Shown: positions 1-19,575 of the stretch, piece by piece
Position numbering within the stretch: the first letter of the stretch is position 1
Layout of the letters: every line of letters begins with the position of its first letter
IMG/VR virus record: IMGVR_UViG_3300025872_000195
Location: 1 to 31,769 of that record
Direction: 5' to 3' (one strand)
DNA from: a virus
DNA: 31,769 nt
Program-made: the position numbers and the translations under genes
The notes under the pieces: model-generated
Seen by the model: the letters and a program-made list of their open reading frames with translations, nothing else
The model's database searches: none
Told to the model about the DNA's origin: nothing

Positions 1-206
1 GGATGCTCACCAGTTACGGTCACACTTTGTCCATCTACTTCAATTACATAAAGTTCATCAGTATCCCGTTGACCAATTACAGTCACTAAGTCTGTTTCAA
101 CTTTCCCGGTATCCTGGGAAAAAGAAACTACTTGATCTCCTTCCTGAATTTCTCCAGCCATTTTTACTCCATGAGGAGTAGTAATTAAAGTTTCAGGAGT
201 CACACA
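1..206 (-). other. Intein N-terminal splicing region inside the radical SAM gene (partial)
   Basis: Starting at Cys28 the translation has the layout of a Hint/intein N-terminus. It begins CVTPETLI (block A, nucleophile Cys1), continues with a glycine turn and GEIQEGDQVVSF, the usual GD-V feature. About 65 residues on it reaches VTVTGEHP, a block B TxxH motif. The insertion falls exactly at the third cysteine of the radical SAM cluster motif. Splicing would therefore need a Cys as the +1 extein residue to rebuild CxxxCxxC. The C-terminal blocks and any homing endonuclease lie outside the window, so activity cannot be judged. Confidence 0.8.
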
Positions 207-287
207 GTAAGTACAATTATAAAGACAGCCATGACCAAAAGAAGGACTGATATAATCAGTTGACCGTCCTGATGGTCTAATCTTCAT
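1..287 (-). CDS. Radical SAM enzyme (SPL-like), 5' part, interrupted by an intein
   Basis: The gene starts at 287 and runs off the left edge. Its first 28 codons contain Cys21, Cys25 and Cys28 in a CxxxCxxC arrangement (GCLYNCTYC), the [4Fe-4S] cluster signature of radical SAM enzymes. The preceding PSF-GHG stretch resembles spore-photoproduct-lyase-like members. From Cys28 on, the protein no longer looks like a radical SAM barrel but like an intein (next entry), so the host domain must resume beyond the window. An in-frame TTG at 314 overlapping the upstream gene is an alternative start; ATG 287 is preferred as the first ATG. It is the last gene visible in the leftward cassette cluster. The radical SAM call rests on the motif and its surroundings; the substrate is unknown. 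Confidence 0.75.
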   Translation of the reverse strand, partial: MKIRPSGRSTDYISPSFGHGCLYNCTYCVTPETLITTPHGVKMAGEIQEGDQVVSFSQDTGKVETDLVTVIGQRDTDELYVIEVDGQSVTVTGEH

Positions 288-767: not shown

Positions 768-1010
768 TTATTCTGATTTAAAGATTTCTAATAAGTCTAC
801 TGTTCTTTCAGCACCATCATATTTAGACTTTGCATGTAACATTTCTCCATTAACATTTTTATTCTTATCAGGATATGTTGCTACAAACTCTGCAAAACTA
901 CACATTTGCTGCTTCTCCATCTCTTTGGCTTGGTCAATATCTCCCTTTGTGAACTTACCACGTTTATTAAAAAGTTGTTGTTCCAACCACTCTACTGCTG
1001 TCTGTTTCAT
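768..1010 (-). CDS. MKQTAVEWL-family small protein, 80 aa
   Basis: A member of a small protein family common in phages and genomes of Bacteroidota. It starts MKQTAVEWL and has a second conserved block around QAKEMEKQQ, with a variable middle. It is a paralogue of the 1588 gene, sharing the start and the AKEME-QQ block. The last residues (IFKSE) come from the junction repeat. No catalytic motif is visible and the function is unknown. Confidence 0.8.
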   Translation of the reverse strand: MKQTAVEWLEQQLFNKRGKFTKGDIDQAKEMEKQQMCSFAEFVATYPDKNKNVNGEMLHAKSKYDGAERTVDLLEIFKSE

Positions 1011-1011
1011 A

Positions 1012-1044
1012 TTATTCTGATTTAAAGGTTAGTTTTGCTTTCAT
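1012..1044 (-). CDS. Ten-codon relic ORF between two junction repeats
   Basis: ATG at 1044 and stop at 1012 enclose a ten-residue frame, MKAKLTFKSE. The first seven residues equal the start of the 545 protein and the last four equal the shared C-terminus of its neighbours. It lies precisely between two copies of the junction repeat. The simplest reading is a cassette whose body was deleted by recombination, leaving start and tail fused in frame. Whether it is translated is unknown. Confidence 0.5.
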   Translation of the reverse strand: MKAKLTFKSE

Positions 1045-1045
1045 A

Positions 1046-1246
1046 TTATTCTGATTTAATTATTTTCCATTTAAAATGATTTGTTTGGCCTATTGTATCT
1101 CCAACATCATTTGAGTGCAAAATTATCATAATGCTTTCTTTGTCATTTAACAATGATGTAAACCATTCTAATTCTCCTTCATCATTATGGCTATACCAAG
1201 TATCTTCATCAAATTCTATTTCACATTCTATCTTAATTTTTGCCAT
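1046..1246 (-). CDS. Hypothetical acidic protein, 66 aa
   Basis: A 66-residue protein beginning MAKIKIECEIEFDED, with alternating charged and hydrophobic residues that suggest beta strands, and ending WKIIKSE from the junction repeat. Start and stop both sit inside junction repeats, as in the other cassettes. I do not recognise the family. The WYSHNDEGELEWF stretch is unusually aromatic for so short a protein. Confidence 0.7.
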   Translation of the reverse strand: MAKIKIECEIEFDEDTWYSHNDEGELEWFTSLLNDKESIMIILHSNDVGDTIGQTNHFKWKIIKSE

Positions 1247-1247
1247 C

Positions 1248-1586
1248 TTATTCTGATTTAAAGGTTAATTCTATTCCTGTAAGTGCAAAGTATAGGTTTT
1301 GAAGTTGGTGAACACTGTGGATGTTTACTTTTTTATAATAAAAATTATTACTGTTACTTCTTTCTATCAATAACCCAAAATCTTTACAATAAACATCTAA
1401 CATTTTCTTTTGGTTGTAACCTATTTCAAACCCAAACTTCAACAACCATTCTTCAATTAATGGTATTGGTTTAACTTGATTATGTGGTTCTTTTACAATA
1501 TAGGTAATTGCTTCTAAATCTATTTTATTTACTTTACCTAAAGTATCATAAACATAATTTCCTATTCTTAATTCACTTGCTTTCAT
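1248..1586 (-). CDS. MKASELRIGNYV-family protein, 112 aa
   Basis: A recognisable family, frequent in phages and mobile regions of Bacteroidota. It begins MKASELRIGNYVYD, has a PIPLIEEWLLKFGFE block in the middle and a C-terminal signature HSVHQLQNLYFALTG. It is full length for the family as I remember it, except that the last residues (LTFKSE) come from the cassette junction. The function is unknown and there is no signal peptide. It is flanked on both sides by junction repeats, so it is probably one unit of a shuffled set. Confidence 0.8.
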   Translation of the reverse strand: MKASELRIGNYVYDTLGKVNKIDLEAITYIVKEPHNQVKPIPLIEEWLLKFGFEIGYNQKKMLDVYCKDFGLLIERSNSNNFYYKKVNIHSVHQLQNLYFALTGIELTFKSE

Positions 1587-1587
1587 T

Positions 1588-1797
1588 CTATTCTGATTTA
1601 AAGGTTTTGTTATAGTAATTCTCTTCAGTTATATTTACTCCGTCATAATAATCTGCTCCGAAAATATCACCTTGAGTAAATGCGGACATAATTTGTTGCC
1701 GTTCCATTTCTTTGGCTTTGTCATAAAAAACTTTAGGAACATTAAAACCCTCTAGTATTAATTCATCAACCAACCACTCTACTGCTGTTTGTTTCAT
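1588..1797 (-). CDS. MKQTAVEWL-family small protein, 69 aa
   Basis: A paralogue of the 768 gene, with MKQTAVEWL at the start, AKEMERQQIMSAF in the middle and KTFKSE at the end. I place the start at ATG 1797 because the family motif begins there; an in-frame ATG at 1821 would add eight residues unlike the family. It is the promoter-proximal gene of the cassette run, downstream of the inverted repeat at 1864-1900. Function unknown. Confidence 0.8.
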   Translation of the reverse strand: MKQTAVEWLVDELILEGFNVPKVFYDKAKEMERQQIMSAFTQGDIFGADYYDGVNITEENYYNKTFKSE

Positions 1798-10807: not shown

Positions 10808-10963
10808 CTCTATATCTTCTACTTCACGCGCATTCATCTGCATGTATAACTTGACATACAAATCATTTAATGGTTTGTAATCTGTGTATTCATACATTGA
10901 GCTTAATGCATCTAAGAGCAACTTGTATTCTTCCCAAGTCATAACTAATCTGGTCTCTTCCAT
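10796..10963 (-). CDS. Small acidic helical protein, 55 aa
   Basis: ATG 10963 to TAA 10796 encodes MEETRLVMTWEEYKLLLDAL, then a tyrosine-rich stretch (MYEYTDYK), LYVKLYMQMNAREVE and an acidic end. It is entirely helical and charged, with no membrane segment. It starts 27 bases downstream of a repeat element (10990-11006) and its stop lies inside a hairpin, the usual layout of this array. Function unknown; probably a host-interaction protein. Confidence 0.7.
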   Translation of the reverse strand: MEETRLVMTWEEYKLLLDALSSMYEYTDYKPLNDLYVKLYMQMNAREVEDIELPF

Positions 10964-11005
10964 AAGTAAATAATTTATTGGTTCTTAATCTGTATAAAGA
11001 AGTAT

Positions 11006-11145
11006 AAAAAAAAGAAACCTTTGCGCGCGAGCTCTGTAGGTTTCACCCAACTAATATGGGACAGGACAATTGACACCTTTGTCAAGGGATGAGTTGGTCT
11101 CGTAGGTTTCTCATCAACCAGAGTTAGTCAAGCTAACATAATTAA
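11006..11145 (-). ncRNA. Structured noncoding RNA B in the mini-unit array
   Basis: This unit lies between a repeat element upstream (11153-11169) and a terminator (stem GAAACCT/AGGTTTC, then eight T) at 11006-11044. It has no frame longer than about ten codons. Reading the minus strand, it can form GTTAG-CTTGA-CTAAC, then a CCAACT/AGTTGG stem enclosing the perfect hairpin TTGACA-AAGG-TGTCAA, then the terminator. GAAACCTAC occurs twice, so two segments compete for the same AGGTTTC partner, as in attenuators. It shares CCTACGAGA with RNA A. No known RNA family recognised. Confidence 0.6.
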
Positions 11146-11170
11146 TTTATATAAGTAAAAAGAAGTATAA

Positions 11171-11193
11171 AAGAAAAGGGAGATTGCTCTCCC
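11171..11193 (-). terminator. Intrinsic terminator of the 24-aa peptide gene
   Basis: GGGAGA and TCTCCC pair around a GCAA (GNRA) tetraloop, followed on the minus strand by TTTTCTTTT. Confidence 0.85.
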
Positions 11194-11206
11194 TCAACTT
11201 AAACCA

Positions 11207-11281
11207 TTAACCATTGGGGTTCTTTACCCAAGACTTAATGGTTAAAACTCCGTTAATAATAACATAAGTTACAGTTCCCAT
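11207..11281 (-). CDS. Small peptide, 24 aa
   Basis: ATG 11281 to TAA 11207 encodes MGTVTYVIINGVLTIKSWVK followed by NPNG, an amphipathic beta-like peptide. It lies 27 bases downstream of a repeat element and ends just before a strong terminator, as do its neighbours. That layout, not its length, is the reason for believing it is translated. It could instead be a short RNA. Confidence 0.5.
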   Translation of the reverse strand: MGTVTYVIINGVLTIKSWVKNPNG

Positions 11282-11323
11282 AGCATAAAATTTTATTGGT
11301 TCTTAATAAGTACAAAGAAGTAT

Positions 11324-11348
11324 AAATAAAGGGGTTATTAAACCCCTT
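11324..11348 (-). terminator. Terminator overlapping the end of the 11338 gene
   Basis: AAGGGGTT and AACCCCTT form a perfect 8-bp stem with a 4-base loop that contains part of the stop codon; TTTATA follows. Confidence 0.75.
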
Positions 11349-11541
11349 CATTCATTTTGTCCTCTGCTTGGTTTACTTGCATTTCAATATACTCCTGCAA
11401 GTGGTCACTTAAATCTGTTAATGCATCTATGTAACCTTCAGTATACTTAAGTTCATACTCATCATATACTCTATCCGCATAACAATTTTCTATTGTTCTG
11501 TTTATGCGGGCAATAACACTTAACACAGTTTCTGTATCCAT
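11338..11541 (-). CDS. Small helical protein, 67 aa
   Basis: Encodes MDTETVLSVIARINRTIENC, then YADRVYDEYELKYTEGYIDAL and a charged amphipathic helix (LQEYIEMQVNQAEDKMN). I choose ATG 11541; a longer frame from TTG 11568 would begin inside the conserved promoter-like element and is unlikely. The stop sits in the terminator stem. It is a soluble small helical protein of the sort that binds host enzymes; the target is unknown. Confidence 0.7.
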   Translation of the reverse strand: MDTETVLSVIARINRTIENCYADRVYDEYELKYTEGYIDALTDLSDHLQEYIEMQVNQAEDKMNEGV

Positions 11542-11584
11542 AATAAATAATTTAATAGTTCTTGACAAGTAAAAAGAAGTATAG

Positions 11585-11605
11585 AAAAAAGGGAATTAAA
11601 TTCCC
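11585..11605 (-). terminator. Terminator of the 47-aa membrane protein gene
   Basis: GGGAAT and ATTCCC pair across a 3-base loop and touch the stop codon; six T residues follow on the minus strand. Confidence 0.8.
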
Positions 11606-11748
11606 TATAACATTGGTGTTAACATACATGCCCAAAACAAATATGAGAATATCATAGACGGGATTATAAAAGTACCCATAGACATTAACAATCCCATAAA
11701 TGATCCTAACAATGCAACACCAAATAAATAATAACCAATTGCTTTCAT
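11605..11748 (-). CDS. Small membrane protein, 47 aa
   Basis: ATG 11748 to TAG 11605 encodes an almost entirely hydrophobic 47-residue protein (MKAIGYYLFGVALLGSFMGL, then MSMGTFIIPSMIFSYLFWA). It has two probable membrane helices. Its size and methionine/glycine content resemble phage membrane effectors. It starts 26 bases downstream of a repeat element and ends at a terminator. Confidence 0.7.
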   Translation of the reverse strand: MKAIGYYLFGVALLGSFMGLLMSMGTFIIPSMIFSYLFWACMLTPML

Positions 11749-11789
11749 AATAAATAGTTTAATGATTTAACACAAGTAAGAAGAAGTAT

Positions 11790-11891
11790 AAAAAAAATAT
11801 AACAAGTGTTTCCGTAGGACTTCCTCTCGTAGGTATATTAAGCAGTAGCCACGGCTGGCCTTGCTCCCCCAGGAAACATTCCTTGTTATAT
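11790..11891 (-). ncRNA. Structured noncoding RNA A in the mini-unit array
   Basis: A unit of about 100 bases between a repeat element (11899-11915) and eight T residues. Its ends pair as ATATAACAAG with CTTGTTATAT (10 bp), continued by GTTTCC with GGAAAC, closing the whole RNA. Inside lies a hairpin AGCA-AG-GCCA-GCCG-TGGC-TAC-TGCT and a single-stranded part with CCTACG twice. No reading frame of useful length exists. It is richer in G and C than its surroundings. The segment GAGAGGAAGTCC recalls part of RNase P RNA, but the overall structure does not. Confidence 0.65.
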
Positions 11892-17520: not shown

Positions 17521-17991
17521 ATGGATATTTTAAATTTTATTTCTTGGATTAAAGCAGGAAACTATAGAGAATCTCTTCCTACAGATGTTCCTAATCTATT
17601 AGCAATTGGATCAAAAGATCCTAGTAGAGATGATAGCTATTTACCAATTGCTGTAAATGCAGCACCTTTACAAACATTGTACAATAGTGGTAAAGTTACT
17701 CAAGTAATTGTACCTACTAACCCAGTTACTTTAGATGCTCACAATGGTGTTGTAGAAACAGTACTTCTTAATACTTCTGCAACAGGGCAAGAAATTTTTA
17801 CTTTTAATAATACGCATATTACTGGTAGATCAACTGTTCTTTTAACTGTTGAATATTCTGGTACAGGATTTCCAGTAGTTAGTTTTAACACTTTAACTAA
17901 TGGTTCATTAGTATTAGTAATTACTAATGTTGATGTTGCTGCTGCACTTAATGCTCCTGTATTAATTCATTTTGCTATTATTAACTCATAA
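17521..17991 (+). CDS. Virion or fibre protein candidate, 156 aa
   Basis: MDILNFISWIKAGNYRESLP is followed by PNLLAIGSKDPSRDDSYLPI and a beta-rich C-terminus (TVLLTVEYSGTGFPVVSF). The beginning matches, as I recall, proteins of the fibre region in phages of Bacteroidota. It lies in the fibre cluster, two bases before the 17994 gene. Probably a surface-exposed head or tail decoration. Confidence 0.6.
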   Translation: MDILNFISWIKAGNYRESLPTDVPNLLAIGSKDPSRDDSYLPIAVNAAPLQTLYNSGKVTQVIVPTNPVTLDAHNGVVETVLLNTSATGQEIFTFNNTHITGRSTVLLTVEYSGTGFPVVSFNTLTNGSLVLVITNVDVAAALNAPVLIHFAIINS

Positions 17992-17993
17992 TA

Positions 17994-19304
17994 ATGTCAA
18001 TTGGCAATTTAAAGGATTACGGGAACAAAGGAAATAACTTTCCCTGGCAACTAAAAATGTTGCAAGGATTAGATACTATTAATAGTAGTATAATAACCGG
18101 TAACATTACAAATGCCAATTCAATGGCTATTGATGCCTTTGGAAGACAAAGAGTTTCTAATCCCCTAACATTATTTGATTCATCTCATAGATATAAAGAT
18201 AATGGTTTATGGAATACCTCCACTGCTAGTGGGGGTACTGCCGTATTTAGTCCAAATGAAGGATTAGTAAACTTAAATGTTGATACAACAAATGGCTCAC
18301 AAGTATTAAGAGAAACAACAAAAGTGTTCTCTTACCAACCAGGTAAATCACTTTTAGTACTTAATACTTTTGTAATGGCTCCTGCTCAAAGTAATTTGAG
18401 ACAAAGAGTTGGTTATTTTGGAACTGATAATGGAATATATATTCAGTTAAATAATAATACTTTAAGCTTTGTTGAAAGAAGTTTAGTAACAGGCTTAGTT
18501 ACTGAAACTGTGGTAAATCAGTCAGCGTGGAATGTAGATAGTTTAGACGGTACTGGTCCATCAGGTGTAGTATTAGACATTACTAAGGCACAGATAATGT
18601 TTATGGATATTGAGTGGTTAGGTGAAGGAACAGTAAGAGTTGGTTTTATTATAGATGGTGTATTTTTGCTTTGTCACAAATTCAACCATGCTAATTATAT
18701 TGTATCAACTTATATTACTACGGCATCTCTTCCTCTTAGATATGAAATTACAAACACAGGAGTAACTGCAAATTCAAGTACATTAAAGCAAGTATGCTCT
18801 ACTGTAATATCTGAAGGTGGTTATGAACTTAGAGGTGCACAACAAGCTGTTGGTACACCTATTACATCACCCACAAGTTTAGCAGTAGCTGGAACTTACT
18901 ATCCAGTAGTAAGTATAAAATTACGTGCAGGATATCAAGATGCTGTAGTTATCCTTACTGCACTTTCTATTATGGGTGTAGCAACTGGTATTTATAATTG
19001 GAAAGTTGTTGCTAGTGGAACTACTACCGGTGGAGCATGGGTTCCTGCAGGTGTAAATTCATCTGTTGAGTATAATATAACAGGAACAAGTTTTGCAGGA
19101 GGAAGAACTTTAGCATCTGGATTCTTAACATCTAGCACACAATCATCAGTAAACTTAGATATATTAAAAGAAGCACTATTTAGTTTTCAACTTGAAAGAA
19201 ATTCTTTTACAAGTACTCCTTATGAACTTACTTTAGTTGTTTCAGCAAGTACAAATACTGAATTGATTTATTCATCAATGGATTGGGAGGAAATTAGTAG
19301 ATAA
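17994..19304 (+). CDS. Structural fibre/spike protein, 436 aa
   Basis: The N-terminus (MSIGNLKDYGNKGNNFPWQL, then KMLQGL) is almost identical to that of the 19321 protein and probably anchors both to the same virion site. The following part (FGRQRVSNPLTLFDSSHRYK, FSYQPGKSLLVLNTF, RQRVGYFGTDNGIYIQL) is a beta-sandwich type that I recall from many phage and virus structural proteins. The C-terminal third (residues 290-436) is another beta domain. A receptor-contact or decoration role fits its position among fibre genes. Confidence 0.75.
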   Translation: MSIGNLKDYGNKGNNFPWQLKMLQGLDTINSSIITGNITNANSMAIDAFGRQRVSNPLTLFDSSHRYKDNGLWNTSTASGGTAVFSPNEGLVNLNVDTTNGSQVLRETTKVFSYQPGKSLLVLNTFVMAPAQSNLRQRVGYFGTDNGIYIQLNNNTLSFVERSLVTGLVTETVVNQSAWNVDSLDGTGPSGVVLDITKAQIMFMDIEWLGEGTVRVGFIIDGVFLLCHKFNHANYIVSTYITTASLPLRYEITNTGVTANSSTLKQVCSTVISEGGYELRGAQQAVGTPITSPTSLAVAGTYYPVVSIKLRAGYQDAVVILTALSIMGVATGIYNWKVVASGTTTGGAWVPAGVNSSVEYNITGTSFAGGRTLASGFLTSSTQSSVNLDILKEALFSFQLERNSFTSTPYELTLVVSASTNTELIYSSMDWEEISR

Positions 19305-19320
19305 TAAATAAATAGAAATT

Positions 19321-19575
19321 ATGTCAGTAGGTAATTTAAAAGATTATGGAAATAAAGGAAATAATTTTCCATACCAACTAAAAGTTTTACAAGGATTATC
19401 ATTGGGACAGTGTTCTAATCTTAAAGAATATGATTTAAATGCTCCAACATCTGGAGCATTAAAATTAGCATTGGAAACATTATTTCAATCTTATCCAGAA
19501 GCATATTTAGTTTCTAAAAGTGTAATATATGATGGAGCTAACTATACCGCTTTTGTAACACTTGCAAATACATAA
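19321..19575 (+). CDS. Short anchor-domain protein, 84 aa
   Basis: Shares the first 26 residues with the 17994 protein (MSVGNLKDYGNKGNNFPYQL, then KVLQGL) but continues for only about 58 residues (LKEYDLNAPTSGALKLALET and a beta-rich end). It could be a minor subunit with the same anchor or competitor for the same site, or the remains of a larger paralogue. Nothing indicates a frameshift, and the coding sequence is clean. Confidence 0.65.
   Translation: MSVGNLKDYGNKGNNFPYQLKVLQGLSLGQCSNLKEYDLNAPTSGALKLALETLFQSYPEAYLVSKSVIYDGANYTAFVTLANT

Follow-up and report, generated by a model that had tools for sequence, protein, structure and literature searches.

Can a radical SAM enzyme build its iron-sulfur cluster when an intein begins exactly at the third cysteine of its cluster-binding motif, and where does the rest of that intein lie? 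The question is raised by the minus strand of the first 287 bases of the IMG/VR viral record IMGVR_UViG_3300025872_000195, analysed here over its whole length of 31769 bases (the window). The window is the complete record, with no DNA left of base 1, and the gene runs off this contig edge. We are highly confident that the locus carries a mobile split-intein cassette of ~965 bp in a phage radical SAM gene of the spore photoproduct lyase (SPL) family, with a putative HNH nuclease gene on the opposite strand that is dual-coded with the N-terminal part of the intein (N-intein).

An intein at the third cluster cysteine

Relative positions (rel) take the A of the N-extein ATG as 1; the window position is 288 minus rel, and the position in L001, a contig described below, is rel plus 202. 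The translation of window 287..1 (minus strand) reads MKIRPSGRSTDYISPSFGHGCLYNCTYC continued by VTPETLITTPHGVKMAGEIQEGDQVVSFSQDTGKVETDLVTVIGQRDTDELYVIEVDGQSVTVTGEH and is stop-free to the contig edge. Its first 27 residues (N-extein, window 207..287, ATG 287-285; MKIRPSGRSTDYISPSFGHGCLYNCTY) correspond to the N-terminus of an SPL-family radical SAM protein, as indicated by a TIGR03886 match on residues 1-32 (E 3.2e-7) and by uninterrupted homologues (L034-L080), and the intein N-terminus adjoins them directly. The motif CxxxCxxC is made up of C21 (window 227-225), C25 (215-213), i.e., cluster Cys 1 and Cys 2, and C28 (206-204), which is at the same time Cys1 of the intein. The N-intein fragment in the window (1..206, minus strand) holds 68 of 98 residues, including Cys1, block A and block B with its T-G-E-H at 14-3. 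A match to TIGR01445 (intein_Nterm) begins at residue 28 with E 2.7e-6, over the cut-off, and reaches E 1.1e-8 when the complete 125-residue N-half is taken from L001. In the PDB, the N-intein profile matches the split intein NrdJ-1 (E 1.2e-9). The structure model of the N-half is of low confidence (predicted local distance difference test, pLDDT, 53); its top matches are inteins (2lwy, E 7.8e-4; 8ubs, NrdJ-1, E 1.1e-3; Z up to 5.8), and it is too poor to be called more than 'intein-like'.

The assignment of the enzyme agrees with the Pfam family PF20903 (spore photoproduct lyase family), which scores 82.7 bits with the uninterrupted homologue L034 and 56.1 with the C-half, against a cut-off of 27. 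The SPL-family equivalog model TIGR03886 gives 302.3 bits over the whole length, below its cut-off of 437.55, which marks the enzyme as a shorter relative and not as the equivalog itself.

Evidence for a split intein

Contig L001 extends past the window edge: its positions 1-489 are identical to window 489-1 (489/489), including 200 bases outside the gene, and it agrees with the truncated locus L033 at 99.9% over 4128 bases. In L001 the N-half ends at a stop at rel 376-378 (L001 578-580) after 125 codons, 30 past the window edge, the last 30 N-intein residues and the stop occupying L001 490-580. The C-half is a separate open reading frame (ORF) on the same strand (L001 1129-2007, ATG at rel 927, 292 residues). 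Its N-terminus, MELIFKKIKAITKIAKQSKVVNFSVQKNENYFANGILTHN followed by CYMKRHKPEG, consists of a 40-residue C-intein (MELIFKK...LTHN), then the +1 Cys and the remaining enzyme, and it passes TIGR01443 (intein C-terminus) with 23.8 bits against a cut-off of 15.6. The C-intein blocks lie in a different frame, ~550 nt downstream of the N-half, behind their own conserved ATG. Because the N-half frame closes and the C-terminal blocks sit in a separate downstream gene, the element is, as judged from its sequence, a natural split intein (a 'fractured gene'), with halves in separate ORFs, each fused to one half of the extein.

This layout is conserved. In a first scan of viral contigs, N-extein and intein occurred together at 32 loci, in addition to the truncated L033 and many uninterrupted homologues, and two further scans brought the contigs with a complete cassette to 37 (25-26 distinct sequences), with identities to L001 down to 63% for the N-intein and 58% for the antisense nuclease described below. 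Cys21, Cys25, Cys1, the T..H of block B and the His-Asn/Cys junction are retained in all 37, and the N-half is 125 residues long in all but L143 (128 residues). The first C-extein residue after the +1 Cys stands at rel 1050 in all first-scan contigs, i.e., there is zero net indel, and is shifted by 3 bases further in the diverged L152 and L153.

An earlier note on this DNA had assumed one continuous intein, and had named a frame closing soon after the edge as evidence to the contrary. Such a cis-splicing intein, its frame running past the contig edge, would explain the block A/B signature and a frame open as far as the edge. However, the L001 frame shuts 30 codons on, the stop follows 125 residues in 36 of the 37 contigs (128 in the other), and the C-terminal blocks come later in another frame with an ATG of their own. 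L001 and the 36 other contigs refute a continuous intein, which we regard as exceedingly improbable, unless a 550-nt RNA intron or a frameshift joins the halves. The same note fared better in its other predictions: the intein does start at the third motif cysteine of a phage radical SAM gene (TIGR01445 from residue 28, with Cys1 in 37/37), and left of base 1, as read through L001, there are C-terminal intein blocks ending in His-Asn, then a +1 Cys and typical radical SAM residues (YMKRHKPEG), in every one of the 37 complete cassettes. Its anatomy was therefore right as to the insertion site and incomplete as to the split in trans and the overlapping antisense HNH nuclease, both of which it missed.

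It could also be argued that the halves are nonsense or frameshift leftovers of a pseudogenised intein, or the product of an assembly error, since stops and a frame change separate them and the window contig breaks at this very place. Against this, the same arrangement recurs in 37 contigs whose N-intein identity falls to 63%, with almost no indels and a conserved ATG, and there are signs of purifying selection on N-intein, C-intein and HNH protein alike. Conservation rules out a broken gene or assembly error, to which we give next to no credence.

An antisense HNH-like gene between the halves

Between the two halves, on the opposite strand, lies an ORF of 273 residues (L001 309-1193, minus strand, ATG at 1130) with two zinc-ribbon-like Cys clusters and an HNH-like core, IDYHHI(I/L)PRWFC...NNIIGLNH..HK..HHLQ, that is invariant or nearly so; the ORF is intact in 37/37 contigs. 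The nuclease ATG and the C-half ATG interlock in the palindrome CATG at rel 926-929. In L030 and L118 the nuclease ATG within CATG is lost and the C-half ATG kept, and an in-frame ATG is found three codons upstream. Nearly all contigs have the nuclease stop at rel 107-109; a few have it at rel 104 or a little further on. The last 90 nuclease residues (from ~184) are thus antisense to the N-half over 272 bp, from rel 378 to rel 107, and the presumed last catalytic (metal-ligand) His, at about residue 192 of 273, falls inside this overlap. In the window only the 3' end of the ORF is present (1..181, plus strand, residues 215-273 from base 2, stop TAG 179-181), as identified from the L001 ORF (1130 down to 309), the 100% identity of the two contigs where they overlap, and the substitution tests below; the start and the core of the ORF are past the edge.

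No significant match was returned by a fold search of the PDB with the nuclease model, in which the HNH enzymes McrA and VcaM4I appear at E 0.7-6, and no relative was detected in 50,697 phage records, 72,556 plasmids and 84,980 species genomes by pattern-based scans, which reach close relatives only.

This arrangement bears on a further alternative, a self-splicing RNA intron that carries the HNH gene and joins the halves into one cis-intein. Group I introns commonly carry HNH homing genes, which speaks for it. However, an Rfam search of L001 1-2200 gave no match even at E up to 1, the HNH gene runs antisense through the N-intein and has a start overlapping the C-half ATG, which leaves scant space for an intron core, and the C-intein starts with its own conserved ATG. 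We consider an intron very unlikely.

Selection on both overlapping frames

In the overlap the third codon position of the N-half pairs with the second position of the nuclease, and therefore no base change is silent in both frames. When each N-half protein was held fixed, its synonymous codons redrawn and the antisense frame scored as open or closed, an open frame was expected in 0.06-0.7% of draws for each sequence; the natural frame is stop-free in 25/25 distinct sequences. A second measure was the mean pairwise third-position difference, taken over codons with an invariant amino acid. It is 0.514 for the N-extein, 0.448 for the N-intein codons that come before the nuclease stop (4 codons only) and 0.087 for the overlap (33 codons), a drop reached in 0/100,000 permutations.

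Rates were also obtained as parsimony changes per opportunity on a tree, and are relative only, as Fitch parsimony undercounts changes and the tree comes from the cassette itself. In the overlap, changes silent in the N-half and altering the HNH protein have a rate of 0.95 (95% interval 0.56-1.42), those altering the N-half and silent in the HNH frame 1.68 (1.19-2.20), and those altering both 0.71. The corresponding values are 1.28 (nonsynonymous) and 3.88 (synonymous) in the nuclease-only region, with synonymous rates of 8.83 in the N-extein and 4.92 in the N-intein before the nuclease stop. Constraint on the nuclease tail is thus similar to that on the remainder of the nuclease, and constraint on the N-intein is seen where the nuclease is indifferent. 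This pattern strongly suggests that both overlapping frames are under purifying selection.

It is nevertheless conceivable that split intein and HNH protein are real and that the HNH frame over the N-intein is a non-functional run-on, its low third-position variation coming from gene conversion or a nucleotide-level signal. Consistent with this, the HNH model is of low confidence over its final 30 residues and the cassette recombines between phages. However, the presumed last metal-ligand His lies inside the overlap, hence the frame must enter it; nearly all contigs keep the stop within rel 104-109; and the tail is retained even where the HNH proteins are only 58% identical overall (L117). Moreover, HNH-silent changes of the N-half outnumber, per opportunity, N-silent changes of the HNH protein, the reverse of homogenisation under N-only constraint, and gene conversion alone would not shift the excess toward nuclease-silent changes. 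A run-on frame therefore seems unlikely.

Another part of the nuclease gene also shows low third-position variation at invariant codons, 0.079 at L001 1058-1126 (rel 856-924) vs 0.294 elsewhere. Lying within the nuclease gene and just upstream of the C-half ATG (ATAGGTTGTAGACTTTTTTGTAATTTTACC), the stretch is a candidate for a promoter or ribosome-binding element that would serve the C-half.

Distribution and mobility of the cassette

Comparison of an occupied locus, L004, with an empty one, L040 or L036, whose identity to it is 99% over the 81-nt N-extein and 95% over the initial 300 nt of the C-extein, shows an exact insertion of 965 bp between TAC and TGT, immediately preceding the third cluster Cys codon. 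Cassette similarity exceeds extein similarity in 315 of 325 pairs, an example being L002 and L025, with cassettes 92% alike and flanking extein DNA only 46-63% alike. At the level of sequence, these results indicate that the cassette is mobile and has had a history different from that of its host gene. The pattern is the one that homing predicts, and the nuclease would be the obvious agent.

The uninterrupted gene is much commoner, occurring in at least 581 viral stretches, the best 80 of which all read CxxxCxxC-Y (empty). No cassette at a site other than the third cluster Cys was found in these viral-contig scans. No match to the enzyme or to the nuclease was obtained among named phages, and a pattern-based genome scan with the uninterrupted enzyme, which reaches close relatives only, gave no confirmed relative, while the family profile shows that relatives exist.

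Other features of the window

The window encodes portal and major head proteins and a terminase nearest to those of Bacteroidota phages (crAss-like, Flavobacterium, Cellulophaga), at ~25% identity. At 768-1602 (minus strand) there are five copies of TTTAAATCAGAATAA (0.64 expected) at junctions of successive tiny ORFs, most of them encoding a common C-terminus, ..KSE-stop, of one ORF and immediately preceding the next ATG; TTTAAATCAGAATAA could be a repeated element for translation initiation or coupling. The starts of two neighbouring ORFs, at 17990-18071 and 19317-19398, are 82% identical (MS[IV]GNLKDYGNKGNNFP), and several ~50-bp repeats lie at 10959-11797.

Discussion

The enzyme would be made as two polypeptides: an N-half with cluster Cys 1 and Cys 2, in which the intein nucleophile stands in for Cys 3, and a C-half whose +1 residue is the true Cys 3, hidden behind the C-intein. 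The halves would associate and trans-splice, joining ...NCTY to CYMKR... and thereby creating the motif. As the earlier note proposed, the third cluster Cys would arrive only through splicing, given that the +1 Cys follows His-Asn in the separate C-half in 37/37 contigs. We infer that assembly of the [4Fe-4S] cluster must come after splicing, because only splicing sets the third cluster Cys beside the first two; cluster binding by the real motif would be impossible earlier, though in the unspliced N-half Cys1 might take the place of the third ligand. The 273-residue zinc-ribbon/HNH protein is most likely a homing endonuclease cutting the empty allele, with a frame that continues through the N-intein gene, such that its C-terminal third and the splicing domain would use the same base pairs.

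Several observations weigh against a functional cassette of this kind. Profile support for the HNH assignment is weak (PHROG 8048, phrog_8048, E 0.0012, residues 149-197), no significant match to the protein was found in Pfam and NCBIfam, and its structure model is mediocre (pLDDT 68, lowest in the final 30 residues). In addition, the C-half sequence comes from L001, not from the window's own contig. Finally, the C-inteins read have Asn (VVNFSV) at the usual catalytic Asp position of block F, where a Campylobacter phage intein (L162) has YDIEV. An Asp is usual in class 1 inteins, if not universal, and splicing efficiency could be unusual here.

More speculatively, with splicing domain and nuclease encoded by opposite strands of one DNA stretch, neither might decay freely, and the cassette could resist the usual loss of its nuclease after homing; through sense and antisense transcripts, the enzyme could even be assembled only when the nuclease is not expressed, and vice versa, and a cluster motif assembled only in trans might be subject to a Cys-3/Cys1 redox gate. 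We hold this set of consequences only tentatively. By analogy with the MoaA intein discussed below, redox control of splicing through Cys-3 and Cys1 is possible; the conservation of Cys-3 is no evidence for it, because Cys-3 is a cluster ligand anyway.

Demonstrations of long antisense overlaps between two selected protein genes are rare, and the ~25 distinct natural sequences make it possible to measure selection on each frame at changes silent in the other. The arrangement suggests a route by which a homing nuclease could be shielded from decay, makes the assembly of a radical SAM cluster motif by trans-splicing testable, and would provide a new split-intein pair.

Comparison with known systems

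By two sequence features, separate extein-fused halves and an intervening free-standing gene for a putative endonuclease, the cassette belongs with the fractured-gene split inteins (NrdJ-1, gp41-1 and IMPDH-1), in which a phage enzyme gene is likewise split with a free-standing endonuclease gene between its halves. Dassa et al. 2009 reportedly described 26 phage-type metagenomic loci of this layout, a split intein interrupting the enzyme gene and a free-standing endonuclease gene placed between the halves. Besides the NrdJ-1 match of the N-intein profile, the C-intein aligns weakly to gp41-1 (E 0.086). In contrast with that group, the cassette has a radical SAM/SPL extein and a zinc-ribbon HNH nuclease, and this nuclease is antisense, with interlocked start codons and 272 bp dual-coded with the N-intein. 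The ribonucleotide reductase (RNR) locus of Campylobacter phage IBB_35 (L162) differs as well, its intervening ORF being on the same strand and lying between the halves, as opposed to antisense and overlapping. The RNR alpha gene of L162 carries a continuous mini-intein and, further on, the split intein with this same-strand ORF.

Inteins at radical SAM motifs offer a second comparison. Pyrococcus abyssi MoaA, a radical SAM enzyme, likewise has an intein at its radical SAM Cys motif, one not known to be split, whereas the cassette halves are separate genes. In the MoaA intein, Cys-3 and Cys1 can form a disulfide that controls splicing (PMC3922620, PMC10663303). The same disulfide geometry is available in the cassette. 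The model NF038136 (intein-containing Rv2578c-family radical SAM) aligns with N-half residues 19-106 at its positions 67-156 and with C-half residues 9-44 at 304-338, i.e., with an equivalent insertion point, although it is a continuous profile of 574 positions from a different radical SAM subfamily.

In a text search of the literature, neither a radical SAM or SPL gene with a split intein nor an intein overlapped in antisense by a nuclease gene came up; Dassa et al. 2009 lay outside this search, so the novelty of the antisense overlap is unproven. Fractured-gene split inteins and inteins at radical SAM Cys motifs are already known; new, as far as can be told, would be DNA dual-coded for splicing domain and nuclease, together with a cluster motif assembled in trans.
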